A DNA stretch of 26,897 bases from a virus, in IMG/VR virus record IMGVR_UViG_3300010233_000149, positions 997 to 27,893 of that record; one strand, given 5' to 3'. Positions 14,360 through 23,818 of this stretch are shown in pieces. Position numbers and translations under genes: made by a program. Every line of letters starts with the position of its first letter. Within the stretch, counting starts at the first letter, position 1. The notes beneath the pieces were generated by a model. It made no database searches and had not been told where the DNA came from. It saw only the letters and a program-made list of their open reading frames with translations.

Positions 14360-15184
14360 TCATCGGCCAAGTAATGCGTGAGTCGCCTTCAGCCGTTTAG
14401 TGTCGCAGTGTACATACACAGCCGTAGTCTCCGCTGATCCGTGGCCCATCATCTCAGTGACGTAACGCAAATCAGCGCCGCCACTCACAAGGTGTGTTGC
14501 GAAACTGTGGCGAAGCATGTGTGGGTGAACCTTCTTTACGATCCCTGCATTCCTTCCGTGCTTCCTCACCAACCGATAAACGTCCACCCTTGACAGTGGC
14601 CGACCAGCGGCAGACGTGAACAAGGTGGGACCGTCTGAACGGCAAGAGTCTATGTATCGTTTCACCGCGCCGGCGCAGAAGTTGTTGATAGGCACCTGGC
14701 GATCCTTCCCGCCCTTGCCTTGTCGCACATGAATCAGACGCTCCCTCAGTTCCACGTCTTCCACCTTAAGCGAACACAACTCCGTAGCCCTGAGTCCGGC
14801 ACCATACAAAAGTTCTAGGACCGCTTGGTCGCGGACCCCGATGTCCGTCTGGTCATCTGGGCAGTATGTGAGCTTCACACAGTCTGCTTCGTTTAGGAAG
14901 TCTGGGAGGCGTTTACCCATTCGGGGGCTTTCAACAAGTGTCGAAACGTCTCCACGGCCTATAAAACGCAGGTAGGCACGGATGGAGGATGCTCGCCTGG
15001 CGACCGACCGAGACCCCTGGCCGGCCTTGCTGAGGGACGCCAACCACGACTGGATCATGGATAGGTCCGTCGCCGCTACGCCCCCGCAAAAGGCCGTGTA
15101 GGCTTCCAGATCGGCCCTGTAAGCATCGACCGTTGCCGCCGACAACCCGCATTCTATCCGAAGATGGTTGATATAGCTTTCCAT
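14360..15184 (-). CDS. Xer-like tyrosine recombinase/integrase
   Basis: 274 aa from ATG 15184 (279 from ATG 15199). The N-terminal core-binding domain is SAM-like (LSAATVDAYRADLEAY). The catalytic domain has all the expected residues: Arg in GAGLRATEL, Lys in QGKGGKDR, His/Arg in HMLRHSFATH, His in MMGHGS and the nucleophile Tyr in AVYVHCD. Size and sequence are closer to XerC/XerD than to lambda integrase. It could integrate the phage at a dif-like or other site, or resolve genome multimers. I prefer 15184 because a -10 box ends 6 nt before it. It is the only leftward gene in the left 16.8 kb. Confidence 0.92.
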   Translation of the reverse strand: MESYINHLRIECGLSAATVDAYRADLEAYTAFCGGVAATDLSMIQSWLASLSKAGQGSRSVARRASSIRAYLRFIGRGDVSTLVESPRMGKRLPDFLNEADCVKLTYCPDDQTDIGVRDQAVLELLYGAGLRATELCSLKVEDVELRERLIHVRQGKGGKDRQVPINNFCAGAVKRYIDSCRSDGPTLFTSAAGRPLSRVDVYRLVRKHGRNAGIVKKVHPHMLRHSFATHLVSGGADLRYVTEMMGHGSAETTAVYVHCDTKRLKATHALLGR

Positions 15185-15190
15185 AACTTT

Positions 15191-15218
15191 AAGATACATC
15201 GGATGGCTGGATATGCAA
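15191..15218 (-). promoter_or_regulatory. Promoter for leaderless recombinase mRNA
   Basis: On the minus strand TTGCAT (15218-15213), a 16-nt spacer and TATCTT (15196-15191). ATG 15184 begins 6 nt after the -10 box. Its -35 box lies next to that of the rightward promoter at 15220, so the two are back to back and could be co-regulated. Confidence 0.5.
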
Positions 15219-16858: not shown

Positions 16859-17039
16859 CTACATTTGCTTCCGGCCACTGCGTTCGTCCATCTTCCCAGA
16901 CTGTAAATTCTTCGCCGTTGGGAATCTCGATCTCCAACCCGCTGTCGAGTTTGACGATCATCTCCTGCGCCGCGAAGTAAGGGACGCCGGCAAAGACACG
17001 GGCACCAATGGAAACGGGACTGGCGGTGTGGTCGGTCAC
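16836..17039 (-). CDS. Hypothetical protein, 67 aa
   Basis: I place the start at GTG 17039, which overlaps the stop of the phosphoesterase gene (GTGA); a longer reading from ATG 17117 would overlap that gene by 82 nt. The sequence is beta-rich, with IVKLDSGLEIEIPNGEEFTV and a final WPEANVAKYLDSD. No family recognised. It is the last gene of the leftward operon. Confidence 0.5.
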   Translation of the reverse strand: MTDHTASPVSIGARVFAGVPYFAAQEMIVKLDSGLEIEIPNGEEFTVWEDGRTQWPEANVAKYLDSD

Positions 17040-18649
17040 GCTCGCCACTTTCCAGCGTAGCAAGTTACTAAAGTACGCTTCCCGTTGGGGTATGTTAGGA
17101 TATGAGAATGGGTCCACCCAGATGGGCCTTTGTTATACGACATATCCAACGTCGTACTCGTCCCCGCCACGTACAGCCCATCCCTAATCTCCGCGACGTG
17201 CGTATGTCCTGTGTTGGCTTTCTTGCCCACTTTGCTCAGGTTCATCGGAGTCCCGCGAGCGCCGTTCACCCCTAAGTGCCCGTGCATACCGTTCTCGATC
17301 TTGCCCCCGCAGGTGGTGAAGGATTCGTCCTGGTGAAGGAAGACCACTCCCTTGGGGCATTCCTCGAATCGAGTCATAGCCGCCTGGATCAGGTTGAACT
17401 TCTTGTCCTTCGTCTCCATGGCATTGTACATGGCCAACTGAAGCTCCAGAAACAAGATCGCGTTCTGTGGAGTCTTGCGATAGTCGTGCTCCCGCAGCCA
17501 CCGACCAAGCCAGTTGTCGTGATTGGAATCAACGACCACCATCTTCGTGTGTGGCCTATGGTATTCGGCCATCACAGCGGCTGTGTCCTTCAGTTCCTTG
17601 GACACCACGTCATAGCCTCGCAGATACGCTTTGAAGAGATCGTGAGGATTGTTCGAGGCATGGTGATTGATCGAGACGCCTTCGAGCATGTCGTGGATGA
17701 ACTGATACTTCGGTAGCAGTGTGTCCAGCATGTCCATGGACAGTTTCTTCACAATGGGATCGACAGTCGTGGCGTGAAGATCACCCCATGTAATGGACTC
17801 AGCGAAATACATGTCGGCGAAACACTTTCCATCCTTCGCCATCACGTTCAAGTCCTGCACCTCGTCATCCGGTCCCGCGTTCAACTGACGCACAAACCAA
17901 TGGCCTTCGTCGGTCACTTCCACAATCAAAGCACCGTAAACGTGATGGAACGACGCTTTCTGACCTTCCTTTTTCTGGATGTAGTTTCTCAGGGTCACGG
18001 TGCCTGTGGTGTACATCAACTTCGTACCCTTGTCGTCGTTCTTCATCGCGGCAACGGACATCATCCTCACCTTGGCATGGGGGAAGATCGAGGAGTGCCG
18101 CTGCGTGTAGACTTCCATTCCGCTTAGGGGATCAACAGCCGTGGGCATGATGTTGATCTCACCACAGAAGACCAGGCCATTGGCCAGGGCTTTGCGGGTG
18201 TCACAGATGAAGGGCTTGATTGCGTCGTCGTACCACAGTTCCTTCTGACGTTCCGCCTTCGTTCCCTGCTTCACCGACAACTGGCCGAAGGCGTTCTGAT
18301 TGTAAGTGAATGTTCCAATCAAAAGCTCTGCGTCGTAATGCTTGGCCAGAGCCTGAAGGTTCTTCCAGAATTCAGCATGGACCTTGGTATTGTTTTGCGC
18401 GCTCGTGACGATGTATCGTTTCACCTTTCCCTTGACGGGAAGGACTGCGGGTTCTGTCTCGGTGCCGTCCACCGTTCCACCGGTCAGAGGCTTCGTCCCA
18501 GGTCCAGTGAGTCCGGCATTCTTCAGATGTTCGTATACCGTTTTCCGGTTTAGACCTGTCTCTCGTGCAACCGCTCTCTGGTTGCCATTGAGACGGTTGT
18601 ATGCTTCCAAGACCCGTTCTCGTGCCGGTGACGGTTTTGCGTTGGGCAT
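17036..18649 (-). CDS. Metallophosphoesterase with N-terminal HTH (T5 A1-like?)
   Basis: 537 aa from ATG 18649, preceded by AGGA. Residues about 10-48 form a helix-turn-helix (NGNQRAVARETGLNRKTVYE). The rest holds the calcineurin-like phosphoesterase signatures in order: GDLHA (about 289-293), SNHDNW (about 375), an isolated His in VVFLHQDE, HGHLGVNG and GHTHVAE (about 481). This family cleaves phosphoesters with two metal ions. Length and layout recall the A1 DNA-transfer protein of T5-like phages, from memory and not tested here. A role in phage or host DNA processing is an inference. It ends in a GTGA overlap with the next gene. Confidence 0.75.
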   Translation of the reverse strand: MPNAKPSPARERVLEAYNRLNGNQRAVARETGLNRKTVYEHLKNAGLTGPGTKPLTGGTVDGTETEPAVLPVKGKVKRYIVTSAQNNTKVHAEFWKNLQALAKHYDAELLIGTFTYNQNAFGQLSVKQGTKAERQKELWYDDAIKPFICDTRKALANGLVFCGEINIMPTAVDPLSGMEVYTQRHSSIFPHAKVRMMSVAAMKNDDKGTKLMYTTGTVTLRNYIQKKEGQKASFHHVYGALIVEVTDEGHWFVRQLNAGPDDEVQDLNVMAKDGKCFADMYFAESITWGDLHATTVDPIVKKLSMDMLDTLLPKYQFIHDMLEGVSINHHASNNPHDLFKAYLRGYDVVSKELKDTAAVMAEYHRPHTKMVVVDSNHDNWLGRWLREHDYRKTPQNAILFLELQLAMYNAMETKDKKFNLIQAAMTRFEECPKGVVFLHQDESFTTCGGKIENGMHGHLGVNGARGTPMNLSKVGKKANTGHTHVAEIRDGLYVAGTSTTLDMSYNKGPSGWTHSHILTYPNGKRTLVTCYAGKWRA

Positions 18650-18661
18650 CAAATATTCCTG

Positions 18662-19260: not shown

Positions 19261-19575
19261 TCAATGAAAGAGAGAAGAGAATTTCGTCTTCAGGTAGTTG
19301 CCGACGACACTCAGAATGCCGGCCAGTATTGTGGCATACATGCCCCACCCGACAGTTGCTTTCAGTTTGTATCCTTCGAGGGTGATGAGCCGTTTGCTTA
19401 CGTCGGCCTGTTGATTTTCCAGTGTTGTCTGCTTCTGCGCGATTGGCTGGATCAGTTCCTTTATTTCAAGTTTGTGAAATTCCAGTCGCTCATTCATGGC
19501 GTCCACGACAGGATCAACAATTAGCTCTTGCAACTTCTTCGTCTGCGCAAGAAACTGAGACAAATCATCCGGCAT
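19261..19575 (-). CDS. XhlA/holin-like coiled-coil membrane protein
   Basis: 104 aa; GGAGAG lies 5 nt before ATG 19575. Residues 1-70 are a charged helical coiled coil (MNERLEFHKLEIKELIQPIA, then ENQQADVSKRLITLEG). Residues about 73-93 are a single membrane helix (GWGMYATILAGILSVVGNYL), followed by a short basic tail. This is the topology of XhlA-type haemolysin/holin accessory proteins. A lysis role is plausible; no endolysin is visible in the window. It follows the tRNA gene. Confidence 0.6.
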   Translation of the reverse strand: MPDDLSQFLAQTKKLQELIVDPVVDAMNERLEFHKLEIKELIQPIAQKQTTLENQQADVSKRLITLEGYKLKATVGWGMYATILAGILSVVGNYLKTKFSSLFH

Positions 19576-19588
19576 AAAGTCTCTCCAG

Positions 19589-19663
19589 TAGCGGGTGTAG
19601 GATTTGAACCTACGGTCTCCGGGATATGAACCCGACGAGATGACCTGGCTTCTCTAACCCGCC
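19589..19663 (-). tRNA. tRNA-Met(CAU), initiator (fMet) type
   Basis: A full 75-nt cloverleaf on the minus strand. Acceptor GGCGGGT pairs with ACCCGCT (G1-U72 wobble). The D stem is GAGA/TCTC. The anticodon stem is TCGGG/CCCGG with loop TTCATAT and anticodon CAU. The variable loop is AGACC, the T arm GTAGG-TTCAAAT-CCTAC, and the discriminator is A73. G29-G30-G31 paired to C39-C40-C41 and the A11:U24 pair are initiator hallmarks, as is a weak first pair (C1/A72 in E. coli, G/U here). The CCA end is not encoded (CTG follows A73). It sits between the tail hub and the holin-like gene. Confidence 0.93.
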
Positions 19664-19668
19664 ACAGT

Positions 19669-19697
19669 ATTATACCACGAAAAACGGCCCTCGTCCA
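19669..19697 (-). promoter_or_regulatory. Extended -10 promoter for the tRNA
   Basis: On the minus strand TGGACG (19697-19692), a 17-nt spacer and consensus TATAAT (19674-19669) preceded by TGG, an extended -10. G1 of the tRNA comes 5 nt after the -10 box, so transcription should start at or very near the mature 5' end. Confidence 0.65.
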
Positions 19698-19702
19698 GCC
19701 CT

Positions 19703-22700
19703 TTAGTACTGGAACACAGCATAGGCAGTTTGGGTAGAGGTTGCGTTCTGGAACAGGCTGAAAAAGGTCGTCGAGCCGTTGGAGGTGTTCGACGTATGCA
19801 GGAACTTGATTGTGGTTCCGGTGCTGGCAGTAAAGGTACTGGTGCTTGTCCCAGAGGGAATCACGTTGATTGCACCACCACCGTTAAACTCACCCTGAAC
19901 TACCGCTCCACCTGGCAAGACGGTCCCAATGGTTGCCGTAAAGGTTCCTCCAGAGGGGACCGTGTATGTAGATGTCGGTACTGCGAAGGCCGTCGCCCCC
20001 AGGTACTGCTCAGTGCTCAGAGACGTGAGCACGGGGAAGTTAGTCACTCCCAGTTGCTGTAGAGCCTGGAAGGTTGAGCCTGAGAATATGTGACTGGTCG
20101 AGATCGCCACATTCAGAGTCGATGCTGTTGTTGATCCCTGTTGATTGGAAGTCACGATCCACCAGTTACGGGGGATGAACAGGGTATTAGTACTGGTCTG
20201 CGCCGTTGAATAGTAGACCAGGTTCCCGTTGGTAGATGTGTAGTAGGGAGATGCCTGATACTTCGTGCTGTTGTTCGTCGGAAAATCTGCCGGCAATGTG
20301 TTCTCGTTCAGCATTGCCAAAATTTCGTTGGTGTTGCGGTAGTCGCGGCGAGTATACGAAAGCACAACACCACGAGTGTCGTCGCTGACGTTGCTTGGCA
20401 CAAACAGAAGGTCAACGTAATAGCTCTGGTTGATCCCCGTTGTCGGGATGGATGTACCCCCACCTCCATGAACGCCAGTGCTGAAGTAGAGATCACCCAC
20501 GGTGGAGGGGAACGGGGTAGTCAGGAACGGGTAGTTACCTTGCGGCTCATTGACAGCAATGGTGTACGTTGATCCCACGGCAATGGCAATCGGGGGATTG
20601 AACGTGGCTTGTTGCCACCCGCTGGAGGACTCATTGGTGAAGACCGTAGAGCCAAGCATAGAACCTGTAGCTTGGTTGAATAGATAGCCTACATGCGTTC
20701 CACCGTTGGCAGGACCACCCTTGTAGAACCTCGCCGCATTAACAGTGCCTACCGTTGCCGTGGAAAAGATCATGCCCAGGTTGAAGTTGGAGCCGTCCGT
20801 AAAGATCGGGTTCTGAATCGTGGACGTGTTGTTAAACATGCTCTCACCAGTCAATGCGAGATTCACAGTATCCACGCTCACATTCTGCGGCCAGAGAGAG
20901 CCGTTCAGAGACAGGTTGGTCGGCGGGTATGGAGACTCTGCTCGGTTATTAAGAGTGATGAAGTTATTGGGGGAGTTACCAATAGGCAGAGAACCGTTCT
21001 GGTTAATATTGCGCAACTTGATGGAATACTGCATGTTCTGAACAAAGGAAAGATCAGTAACGTTTCCGGCCACGGAAATATTCCACACCATTGCGTTTTG
21101 GTTGTGAACGGTCGGTACAGTATCACATAGGCCACGGAATACTCCAGTATACTCGATAGTCGATGCCGTGGAATTTACTCCTGTGTAGGCAAAGATTTCC
21201 TGATCCACCATAGACAGGTTGAACAGGCCCACGCCAATCTGTGTTGAAGTGGCCGTTGTCAGTGAGGCAAAGACTGTAGCTATGGAATCAACACTCATAC
21301 CAGTAGAGAGGGTGTCTCCACCAATAGTGCTTGGGTAGTTCACAGTTGAAGAAAGCACTGTGCGTGTAAGGAATCCTTGCACGTCTCCTACCTGCTGGAA
21401 GTCCGTCGAAGTATAGGGGTTAGACCAGATTTCGATCTGAGAAGAACCATCATTAGGGTATTCAGCGCCTGCCCAGATGCGATCAAGAGCACCTGGATTG
21501 ACCACGGCCAATTGGTCAAACTTGTAAGGAGCTTCGAAGATCAACGAATTTTGGATCGTGATGGGAGCAGGTAAGATACCGCCAGGATTGGTCCATTGCG
21601 TAGAAGTTGGGTCTGCATAGGAAGGTGCACCAAAACCGAACACGTCTTGTGCCAAGTCAAGGACTATTGTCTGATCGTCTGACTTACCAAGGTCCACACG
21701 AATGATGCGCATGGGACGATTGATCACTCCCAGCGATGTGTTGGTGAACGCAACCACGTCTCCTGGATTATTCAGATAGAACGTACGATCCACCTCCACT
21801 GTCACCTTGCTCATAGGAACACACAGTGCTCGCAGATCACGCCATGCTATGTTATTGGCCAGAGTCTGATCTTTTACTCCACTGTACTTTTCTTCCACGG
21901 AAATAACAGTGCCACCCTGAATCATCACGTTGGCCATGTCCTGGGCAAGACCGTATGCCTCCTGATAACTATCCTCACGTGCGGAGAAACGAACGTTGAT
22001 CTGGTTAGTGGTGTCTTCCCATGCCCCTTGCGTATAAGATTTCACGCGAATGGTGTTTGATTCGTTGATTGCCGGAACAGTGTTTATGTTGTACCCTGCG
22101 CGGGCTAGGGTGCATTCCCACAAACCAGAGTTTCGATTGACAAAAATAAAGCCATCTATCTGACGTTCAATCTCTATTAACAGTTCCGTGCATTGAATTG
22201 TGTTATCAATGACAAGGCTGATGCCATTACCTTCGTTGTACAGGGTAGTAGCTGCCGCCTGGAAGTTTGCAACATTAACTAGAGTGGGGCTTTGTCCCAA
22301 CCCCCACACCGTGTTGGTAAGAATCTCGTATATTACTTCCATGGGATTGGAATCAGTACCAATCCCGTTTGAGTCCGTGTTTACAATGTTCATTCCGCCG
22401 CTCAACCCAAGATTGTTGGGACAGCGGCGCACCTCAAAGGCCCATGGCTCGATCTGACTTGAGTTACCAAACCAGAACCCCCAAGCCAGTACATAGGCGA
22501 GACCCCGGAAGGCTGGAGTAACAGCAGTGAATACACTGTTCAGAGAGGCAATGCCCATCGAATAGATTCCGTAAACGCTGAAGTCCGGCTCAACACTATT
22601 TGTTTCTGTGTTAAGATTGCCACCAAAACCCAGCATGAATCCTTGATTGATATCCGTAGGGATGTCCAAAATTCTGGGGTCGGACCAAGTACCACCGAAC

Positions 22701-23818
22701 GGGGTTATTGTTCCGTTGATCTTAATGGTAACAGTGTCTCCGGATATATCCATCTCAACCGTAGCCTGCGACGATGTAAGGTCCACGCCGGTGATGTTAG
22801 CCAGAGTAACTCTACCGGCACTTGTGGGAGAGGTGAACGACACAAAATACTGTTGATCTATGTATTCAAACACCACACCGTAGCTATTTGGAGAAGTCAG
22901 TCCCTGGTCCTGCACTTTACATGCGAATCCGATGACCGAACCTTGATCGGAGGCAGTAGTAACATCGCTGCCTTGCAGTACGACCACCATCTTGATTTGA
23001 TCGGATAGTCTTGGCCGGCTAGGTTGTTGTAACAGAGCAACGTATGTGGAATTATCACCAGTTCCAAGTCCTGCCTGAATCGACGATCTCATATGAACCG
23101 TGTTCGAAGAGTTTTCAGTCGCGTAAATATTCGAAGCTGTAACCATGACCTGTTGTGTTGATTGTAGTGCACCACCTCCTGTTATTGGCCCCTCTGTCCC
23201 TGTGTTGTAGACAGCATAGTATGCGTTGGGATCAGTAGCTTCGAATTCCTGGACAGGTTGTCTTTGCTGTCCTTGACTGAAGTCGTCGAACCAGATAAAG
23301 GCCGGTTGAGCCGCGCCTAGATTGGGATCAACGTTCTGGGTCGTCGTTCCCACATAAAAATCTACCTCACCTGCAACACCACCGTTTCCAGGAGGAGCGT
23401 TTCCACCATACATGTCCTCCATGTCTATGAAGATACTACCTTCTCCTTGCGCACCAGAGAATACAACAAAATCCCCGATGTAAATGGTTTTATAAAAGTC
23501 AATAGGACCGAGACACACAGCCATTTGAATAGAGGCATAGTATCTATAGCTAATAGTAACCCGACTGGAAGAAAACAACCCTGACTTTATGTGAGTGGTG
23601 TTAGCCACAGAGACGATGTTTCCATACCACACAACATTGGGGGCGTTGAGCAAAACGGTTCCCCACACCAACGGTATAACTCGCCCCTGGGTGGCGGTCG
23701 GAAACTGGAAGTCACCAAGAGAAGCAGGTCGTGCATTCTCTACATGTGGTTTGGGCTGAAGCAAGATGGAAATGGCAAAAGCAGCAACCCAGAGAATTAG
23801 TGTTGTTAATGTAAACAT
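19703..23818 (-). CDS. Tail tip/central hub protein (gpJ/GTA gp15-like)
   Basis: 1371 aa; AGGA 5 nt before ATG 23818. It starts with a hydrophobic helix (LTTLILWVAAFAISILLQP), then PASLGDFQFPTATQGRVIPL and VWGTVLLNAPNVVWYGN, the conserved opening of phage hub proteins. The middle (VYEILTNTVWGLGQ, then CTELLIEIERQIDGFIFVNR, then NNPGDVVAFTNTSLGV) matches the putative phage tail protein domain of lambda J and RcGTA gp15-like hubs. The last about 550 residues are Ser/Thr/Asn-rich beta modules, probably exposed fibre-like domains. It forms the needle end of the tail that contacts the cell. It follows the BR0599-like gene directly. Confidence 0.85.
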   Translation of the reverse strand: MFTLTTLILWVAAFAISILLQPKPHVENARPASLGDFQFPTATQGRVIPLVWGTVLLNAPNVVWYGNIVSVANTTHIKSGLFSSSRVTISYRYYASIQMAVCLGPIDFYKTIYIGDFVVFSGAQGEGSIFIDMEDMYGGNAPPGNGGVAGEVDFYVGTTTQNVDPNLGAAQPAFIWFDDFSQGQQRQPVQEFEATDPNAYYAVYNTGTEGPITGGGALQSTQQVMVTASNIYATENSSNTVHMRSSIQAGLGTGDNSTYVALLQQPSRPRLSDQIKMVVVLQGSDVTTASDQGSVIGFACKVQDQGLTSPNSYGVVFEYIDQQYFVSFTSPTSAGRVTLANITGVDLTSSQATVEMDISGDTVTIKINGTITPFGGTWSDPRILDIPTDINQGFMLGFGGNLNTETNSVEPDFSVYGIYSMGIASLNSVFTAVTPAFRGLAYVLAWGFWFGNSSQIEPWAFEVRRCPNNLGLSGGMNIVNTDSNGIGTDSNPMEVIYEILTNTVWGLGQSPTLVNVANFQAAATTLYNEGNGISLVIDNTIQCTELLIEIERQIDGFIFVNRNSGLWECTLARAGYNINTVPAINESNTIRVKSYTQGAWEDTTNQINVRFSAREDSYQEAYGLAQDMANVMIQGGTVISVEEKYSGVKDQTLANNIAWRDLRALCVPMSKVTVEVDRTFYLNNPGDVVAFTNTSLGVINRPMRIIRVDLGKSDDQTIVLDLAQDVFGFGAPSYADPTSTQWTNPGGILPAPITIQNSLIFEAPYKFDQLAVVNPGALDRIWAGAEYPNDGSSQIEIWSNPYTSTDFQQVGDVQGFLTRTVLSSTVNYPSTIGGDTLSTGMSVDSIATVFASLTTATSTQIGVGLFNLSMVDQEIFAYTGVNSTASTIEYTGVFRGLCDTVPTVHNQNAMVWNISVAGNVTDLSFVQNMQYSIKLRNINQNGSLPIGNSPNNFITLNNRAESPYPPTNLSLNGSLWPQNVSVDTVNLALTGESMFNNTSTIQNPIFTDGSNFNLGMIFSTATVGTVNAARFYKGGPANGGTHVGYLFNQATGSMLGSTVFTNESSSGWQQATFNPPIAIAVGSTYTIAVNEPQGNYPFLTTPFPSTVGDLYFSTGVHGGGGTSIPTTGINQSYYVDLLFVPSNVSDDTRGVVLSYTRRDYRNTNEILAMLNENTLPADFPTNNSTKYQASPYYTSTNGNLVYYSTAQTSTNTLFIPRNWWIVTSNQQGSTTASTLNVAISTSHIFSGSTFQALQQLGVTNFPVLTSLSTEQYLGATAFAVPTSTYTVPSGGTFTATIGTVLPGGAVVQGEFNGGGAINVIPSGTSTSTFTASTGTTIKFLHTSNTSNGSTTFFSLFQNATSTQTAYAVFQY

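Follow-up and report, generated by a model that had tools for sequence, protein, structure and literature searches.

It has long been asked why phages carry tRNAs. The sequence features of tRNA described for initiation and formylation are the three consecutive G:C pairs of the anticodon stem (29-31/39-41; 3GC), together with G2:C71, C3:G70 and A11:U24, the last three being described as formylation aids (PMC7949028). Phage initiator-type tRNAs are already known, and an initiator body is found in tRNAs of the cultured phages phi92, JohannJBalmer, CcrSC, pf16, phiCbK, Myrna, phiAS5 and phiLM21. Most phage initiator-bodied tRNAs are annotated as tRNA-Met; those of JohannJBalmer and CcrSC are, respectively, annotated and noted as tRNA-fMet. 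Their anticodon stems are of several kinds: 3GC in pf16 and LRRHood, AGG:CCT in Myrna, XbC2 and CBB, TGG:CCA in phiCbK, CcrSC and phiLM21, AGC:GCT in phiAS5 and Muntaha, and AGT:GCT in phi92. In other phage tRNAs, anticodon-loop changes have been proposed to confer resistance to anticodon nucleases (PMC10264068), and an enteric VapC cleaves tRNAfMet at A38/C39 (PMC4105405). A 2023 analysis found that the phages examined for a host with an fMet-targeting VapC generally avoided encoding tRNA-fMet (PMC10264068).

The tRNA described here is a further, somewhat unusual member of this group. It lies in the window, i.e. the whole stretch of DNA that was analysed (26,897 nucleotides; positions 997 to 27,893 of IMG/VR record IMGVR_UViG_3300010233_000149), and is the only tRNA in the entire 32,334-base virus record. 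The original prediction had placed a CAU tRNA here without giving its strand; ARAGORN (tRNA-Met(CAT), 19588-19663) and Rfam RF00005 (19589-19663, full length 1-71, 61.2 bits with 29 required, E 3.5e-11) both confirm it, on the minus strand. This E-value and a fold z-score of -3.3 argue against a chance match. The minimum-energy fold did not return the cloverleaf, which is not counted against the identity of the tRNA; minimum-energy folding of single tRNAs commonly misses the cloverleaf. The 5′ part parses as GGCGGGT TA GAGA AGCCAGGTCA TCTC G TCGGG TTCATAT CCCGG and the remaining 3′ part as AGACC GTAGG TTCAAAT CCTAC ACCCGCT A, with CTG following nucleotide 73. The stems and invariant positions (T8, A14, G18G19, TTC, A58, C61) are intact, so the gene is not a decaying copy. 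All of the pairs on which the prediction had drawn, namely G29:C41, G30:C40, G31:C39, A11:U24 and the G1-U72 wobble, are seen in the parsed cloverleaf, as are G2:C71, C3:G70 and A73. Two features that it had not included are the altered positions 32 and 38 of the anticodon loop and a promoter-like sequence 5 nt upstream (Table 1).

Table 1. Features at and around the tRNA gene, in window coordinates.
Feature	Position	Strand	Remarks
Initiator-type tRNA(CAU), nt 1-73, no encoded CCA	19589..19663	minus	ARAGORN, Rfam, cloverleaf parse, profile score
CAU anticodon (34-36)	19626..19628	minus	ARAGORN
G29-G31 of the three G:C pairs	19631..19633	minus	Cloverleaf parse
C39-C41 of the three G:C pairs	19621..19623	minus	Cloverleaf parse
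U32	19630	minus	C in all sampled cellular initiators; loop comparisons
U38	19624	minus	A in all sampled cellular initiators; loop comparisons
5′ side of the enteric VapC cut 38/39 (U38)	19624	minus	Cut site as given in PMC4105405
Promoter-like TGGACG-17-TATAAT, extended -10 (TGGTATAAT)	19669..19697	minus	Ends 5 nt before tRNA nt 1
Tail (hub) protein, 5′ of the tRNA gene	19703..23818	minus	Relatives mainly in Pseudomonas and other Gram-negative phages
104 aa ORF, hydrophobic segment near C-terminus	19261..19575	minus	No family match
FkbM-type methyltransferase, PF05050	18662..19348	minus	True start probably 3′ of the listed GTG
T5 A1-like DNA transfer protein (phrog_1745)	17036..18652	minus	
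Tyrosine recombinase (integrase)	14360-15199		4.4 kb from tRNA
Second FkbM-type methyltransferase, PF05050	12355-12954	plus	
Sigma-70-like factor (regions 2 and 4)	1663-2487	plus	

The tRNA shares 3GC, A11:U24, G2:C71 and C3:G70, thus all of the features named for initiation and formylation, with E. coli tRNA-fMet (metZ/W/V), as well as A73 and the CAU anticodon. It differs in having a G1-U72 wobble instead of the C1xA72 mismatch, the loop UUCAUAU instead of CUCAUAA, and no encoded CCA. To build a position-specific profile, genomes across phyla and E. coli supplied 88 cellular initiators and 25 cellular elongator Met/Ile2 tRNAs as training sets. The phage tRNA scores +33.4 (+31.9 without the anticodon arm), compared with 42 to 87 for the training initiators and -164 to -68 for the elongators, both ranges not being leave-one-out; in a leave-one-out version the initiators span 29 to 76 and the phage tRNA scores 26. 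This classification bears out the original assignment to initiators rather than to elongator Met or Ile2, and supports an initiator-type tRNA at the edge of the cellular initiator range, slightly outside it. A tRNA-Ile2 read through lysidine at C34 would agree with the gene in its CAU anticodon only. The body and stem are unlike cellular Ile2, the closest sampled cellular non-initiator reaches 72% identity, and position 38 is U rather than A38, which is among the E. coli Ile identity elements; this identity is highly improbable.

The terminal pair is another matter. The weak G1-U72 pair had been taken as a mark of initiators, a claim that the counts do not support: G1 occurs in 0/100 cellular initiators and G1-U72 in 12 of 27 cellular non-initiator CAU tRNAs. 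A wobble, neither a Watson-Crick pair nor a mismatch, it is elongator-like when judged against these tRNAs and is one feature that pulls the phage tRNA to the edge of the initiator score range. It could also weaken formylation or resistance to peptidyl-tRNA hydrolase. Bacillota elongator tRNA-Met likewise has G1-U72, A73 and U32, but differs from the phage tRNA in having Y11:R24, no 3GC and C38. The gene might be read as an elongator tRNA-Met that has an initiator body and acts inside reading frames: two of its features, G1-U72 and U32, occur frequently in cellular elongator Met but not in initiators, and many phage relatives, among the matches listed, no longer have all three G:C pairs. With 3GC intact, A11:U24 present and an initiator-class body, where elongators score below -67, we consider this unlikely. 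Plain elongator and Ile2 identities, as well as the integration-site reading discussed below, were tested and are placed low.

The first unusual feature of the initiator-type tRNA is its anticodon loop, which matches no sampled cellular initiator. In a pattern scan that left positions 32 and 38 free, CUCAUAA was found in 44/44 Bacillota, 49/49 Pseudomonadota and 49/49 Actinomycetota matches (142/142), and a general genome scan added 121/121 further tRNAs. This loop is near-universal in cells, and is not a listed functional requirement for initiators. A separate search for non-A38 initiator forms returned none in 299 Pseudomonadota genomes; as its positive control, 60 of these genomes were searched more loosely, and all matches except for one isolated AUCAUAG were CUCAUAA. 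With 32 and 38 again left free, 11 of 64 distinct viral-contig tRNAs among the matches listed in one scan are altered at 32/38, vs 0/90 cellular tRNAs (Fisher p 4e-5), which makes such changes characteristic of viruses.

These loop changes raise the possibility of a nuclease-resistant replacement, in which C32U and A38U would let the tRNA survive host cleavage so that initiation continues. A loop change at or near a known anticodon-nuclease site would be expected of nuclease-evading phage tRNAs (PMC10264068), and U38 is such a change, adjoining the 38/39 bond cut by VapC (PMC4105405). The near-invariance of the cellular loop and its alteration in viral copies fit this reading, as does the protective role proposed for loop changes in other phage tRNAs. 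On the other side, viral initiator-type tRNAs, among the matches listed, vary at rates equal to or greater than this at 4:69, 73 and 13:22, positions that are fixed in cells, so that nuclease evasion is compatible with the variation at 32/38 without being singled out by it. Mutual exclusion of loop and stem changes, a possible prediction of nuclease evasion, was not found: altered loops are equally frequent in viral tRNAs with and without altered stems, again among the matches listed (p 0.77). Resistance of this tRNA to host anticodon nucleases is thus plausible, not specifically supported, and as the reason for the gene we hold it to be doubtful.

Tracing the initiator body in other phages corrects the expectation that such genes are uncommon among phage tRNAs. 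E. coli metZ is matched by 345 and the window tRNA by 191 of 50,697 phage records; some of these matches have eroded 3GC, and some come from records of bacterial DNA. Scanning viral contigs by pattern gave at least 120 matches to initiator-bodied tRNAs. As lists of limited length from IMG/VR, which contains some host DNA, these are samples and not frequencies. Contamination with host DNA would make viruses look more, not less, like cells. The best phage match to the window tRNA has 81.6% identity. The UUCAUAU loop of the window tRNA recurs in phi92 and JohannJBalmer. Its full 3GC, in contrast, is missing from phi92, phiCbK, phiAS5, phiLM21 and others. An initiator-type tRNA on a 457 kb viral contig (L012), with 89.6% identity over 67 comparable positions, has both 3GC and UUCAUAU; unlike the window tRNA, it combines U1 with C72, has an encoded CCA and adjoins a tRNA-Asn.

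With the anticodon stem left free, cellular genomes gave two stems alone, GGG:CCC (126) and AGG:CCT (16, exclusively from the Pseudomonadota sample). Viral contigs gave mostly other stems, with AGG:CCT, TGG:CCA, AGC:GCT, AGT:ACT and more, still paired, among the matches listed; in L531-L630 many initiator-bodied CAU tRNAs lack one or two of the three G:C pairs but retain G30:C40. The stems of the cultured phages named at the outset follow the same pattern. Only a minority of the listed viral-contig initiator-bodied tRNAs keep 3GC; G30:C40 is kept in 91-94% of them, G31:C39 in ~70% and G29:C41 in 26%, the losses at 29:41 including the A:U type that cells also show. Such retention of G30:C40, among the matches listed, is what selection for initiator function would predict. 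Taken as a group, the viral tRNAs in these matches have become diverse in the anticodon arm, and G30:C40 is mostly the only one of the three pairs that they keep. Several other forms were observed. Eight phage contigs of ~165-175 kb, presumably T4-like (L014, L017, L019, L045, L052, L062, L064 and L076), encode a CAU tRNA with 3GC, UUCAUAU and U1xC72 whose D stem lacks R11:Y24; these tRNAs combine features of initiators with those of elongators. Unannotated initiator-type tRNAs occur in Bacteroides phage BI-TP1 (L639; loop AUCAUAG) and in Aeromonas phage ZPAH1 (L330; loop CUCAUUA, with position 37 changed).

The second unusual feature of the window tRNA is its placement. Several initiator-bodied tRNAs of cultured phages lie within tRNA arrays, whereas this one stands alone in its record, directly behind a strong-looking predicted promoter of its own. 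Across the whole window there is a single TGNTATAAT, where chance would give 0.5 in the 54 kb of the two strands; this copy sits 5 nt before tRNA nucleotide 1, and the odds of a chance hit at that spot are ~1e-4. Transcription is predicted to start at G1 or G2 of the tRNA, yielding a leaderless tRNA transcript, and G1 would suit a transcript beginning at nucleotide 1. An exact TATAAT 4-7 nt upstream was found in only 3 of 181 viral initiators among the matches listed, and in 0/100 cellular initiators, where it is 10 nt or more away; a general rule of leaderless phage tRNAs was rejected on these counts as at most a weak trend. The record also encodes a sigma-70-like factor, which could bear on promoter use, that of the tRNA included.

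The tRNA gene is located between the tail gene, which ends at 19703, and a run of three genes encoding the 104 aa protein, the FkbM methyltransferase and A1. Past tRNA position 73, a GGAGAG ribosome-binding site comes first and the ATG of the 104 aa ORF starts 13 nt on; no terminator is predicted between the two genes. This arrangement, with the promoter directly 5′ of the tRNA, could mean that the main role of the tRNA is that of a 5′ leader or processing signal of the 104 aa ORF-FkbM-A1 mRNA, with initiator function coming second. A punctuation role would not need the full set of initiator determinants, and we rate it as quite unlikely.

Other genes of the record encode tape-measure and tail proteins and a topoisomerase fragment, and by its predicted gene content the record is a tailed-phage fragment bearing T5 A1. 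Two FkbM-type methyltransferase genes are present. The integrase gene suggests a further reading, a captured host gene kept as an att integration site, and partial initiator tRNAs at other viral loci (L236, L240 and L265) do resemble att halves. The window tRNA, however, is complete and 4.4 kb away from the integrase; it is preceded by a predicted promoter of its own and carries a loop unlike any sampled cellular initiator, and is thus not a host-gene copy recombined across that region; we find this reading very improbable. No relatives with the same gene order were found via A1 or the tail protein, the latter returning no loci as a query, and these searches gave no case of the tRNA being conserved at this position. 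The A1 relatives L002-L004 have only A1 in common with the window and none has the window tRNA; the 92.8 kb record among them has tRNA-Asn and tRNA-His as its only tRNAs. A search of the phage collection with the right-hand 12 kb of the window gave no near-identical DNA, and in viral contigs a 20-base probe for the downstream ORF had no match.

Overall, we think it probable that this is a phage initiator-type tRNA with its own sigma-70-type promoter that adds to or replaces the host initiator pool in infection. Transcripts from this promoter would begin with tRNA nucleotide 1, or no more than a base away from it, and would run on into the genes for the 104 aa protein, the methyltransferase and A1. 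CCA would be added by the host, MetRS would charge the tRNA via CAU and A73, and formyltransferase would act on it via the weak 1:72 pair, G2:C71, C3:G70 and A11:U24. The three G:C pairs would then admit it to the ribosomal P site, and the host initiator pool would be supplemented or replaced, to the presumed benefit of the phage. More tentatively, phages may keep a distinct initiator-tRNA family whose anticodon arm has diverged from the near-invariant cellular form, giving a nuclease-proof pool that still passes the host P-site check. In such a family often G30:C40 alone would be kept, or 32/38 altered, the window tRNA being a case of 3GC kept and loop changed.

Codon compensation hardly accounts for an initiator tRNA that stands alone and has its own promoter. 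Such a gene therefore offers a clean test of initiation supply vs nuclease evasion. Its added interest lies in the loop, in the placement of the promoter and in the wider diversification of phage initiator-bodied tRNAs. Among the matches listed, the viral set shows which G:C pairs are dispensable (29:41 and 31:39) and which is retained (30:40). The comparisons also suggest that initiator-bodied tRNAs are common across phages, where they would be hidden under the label tRNA-Met.
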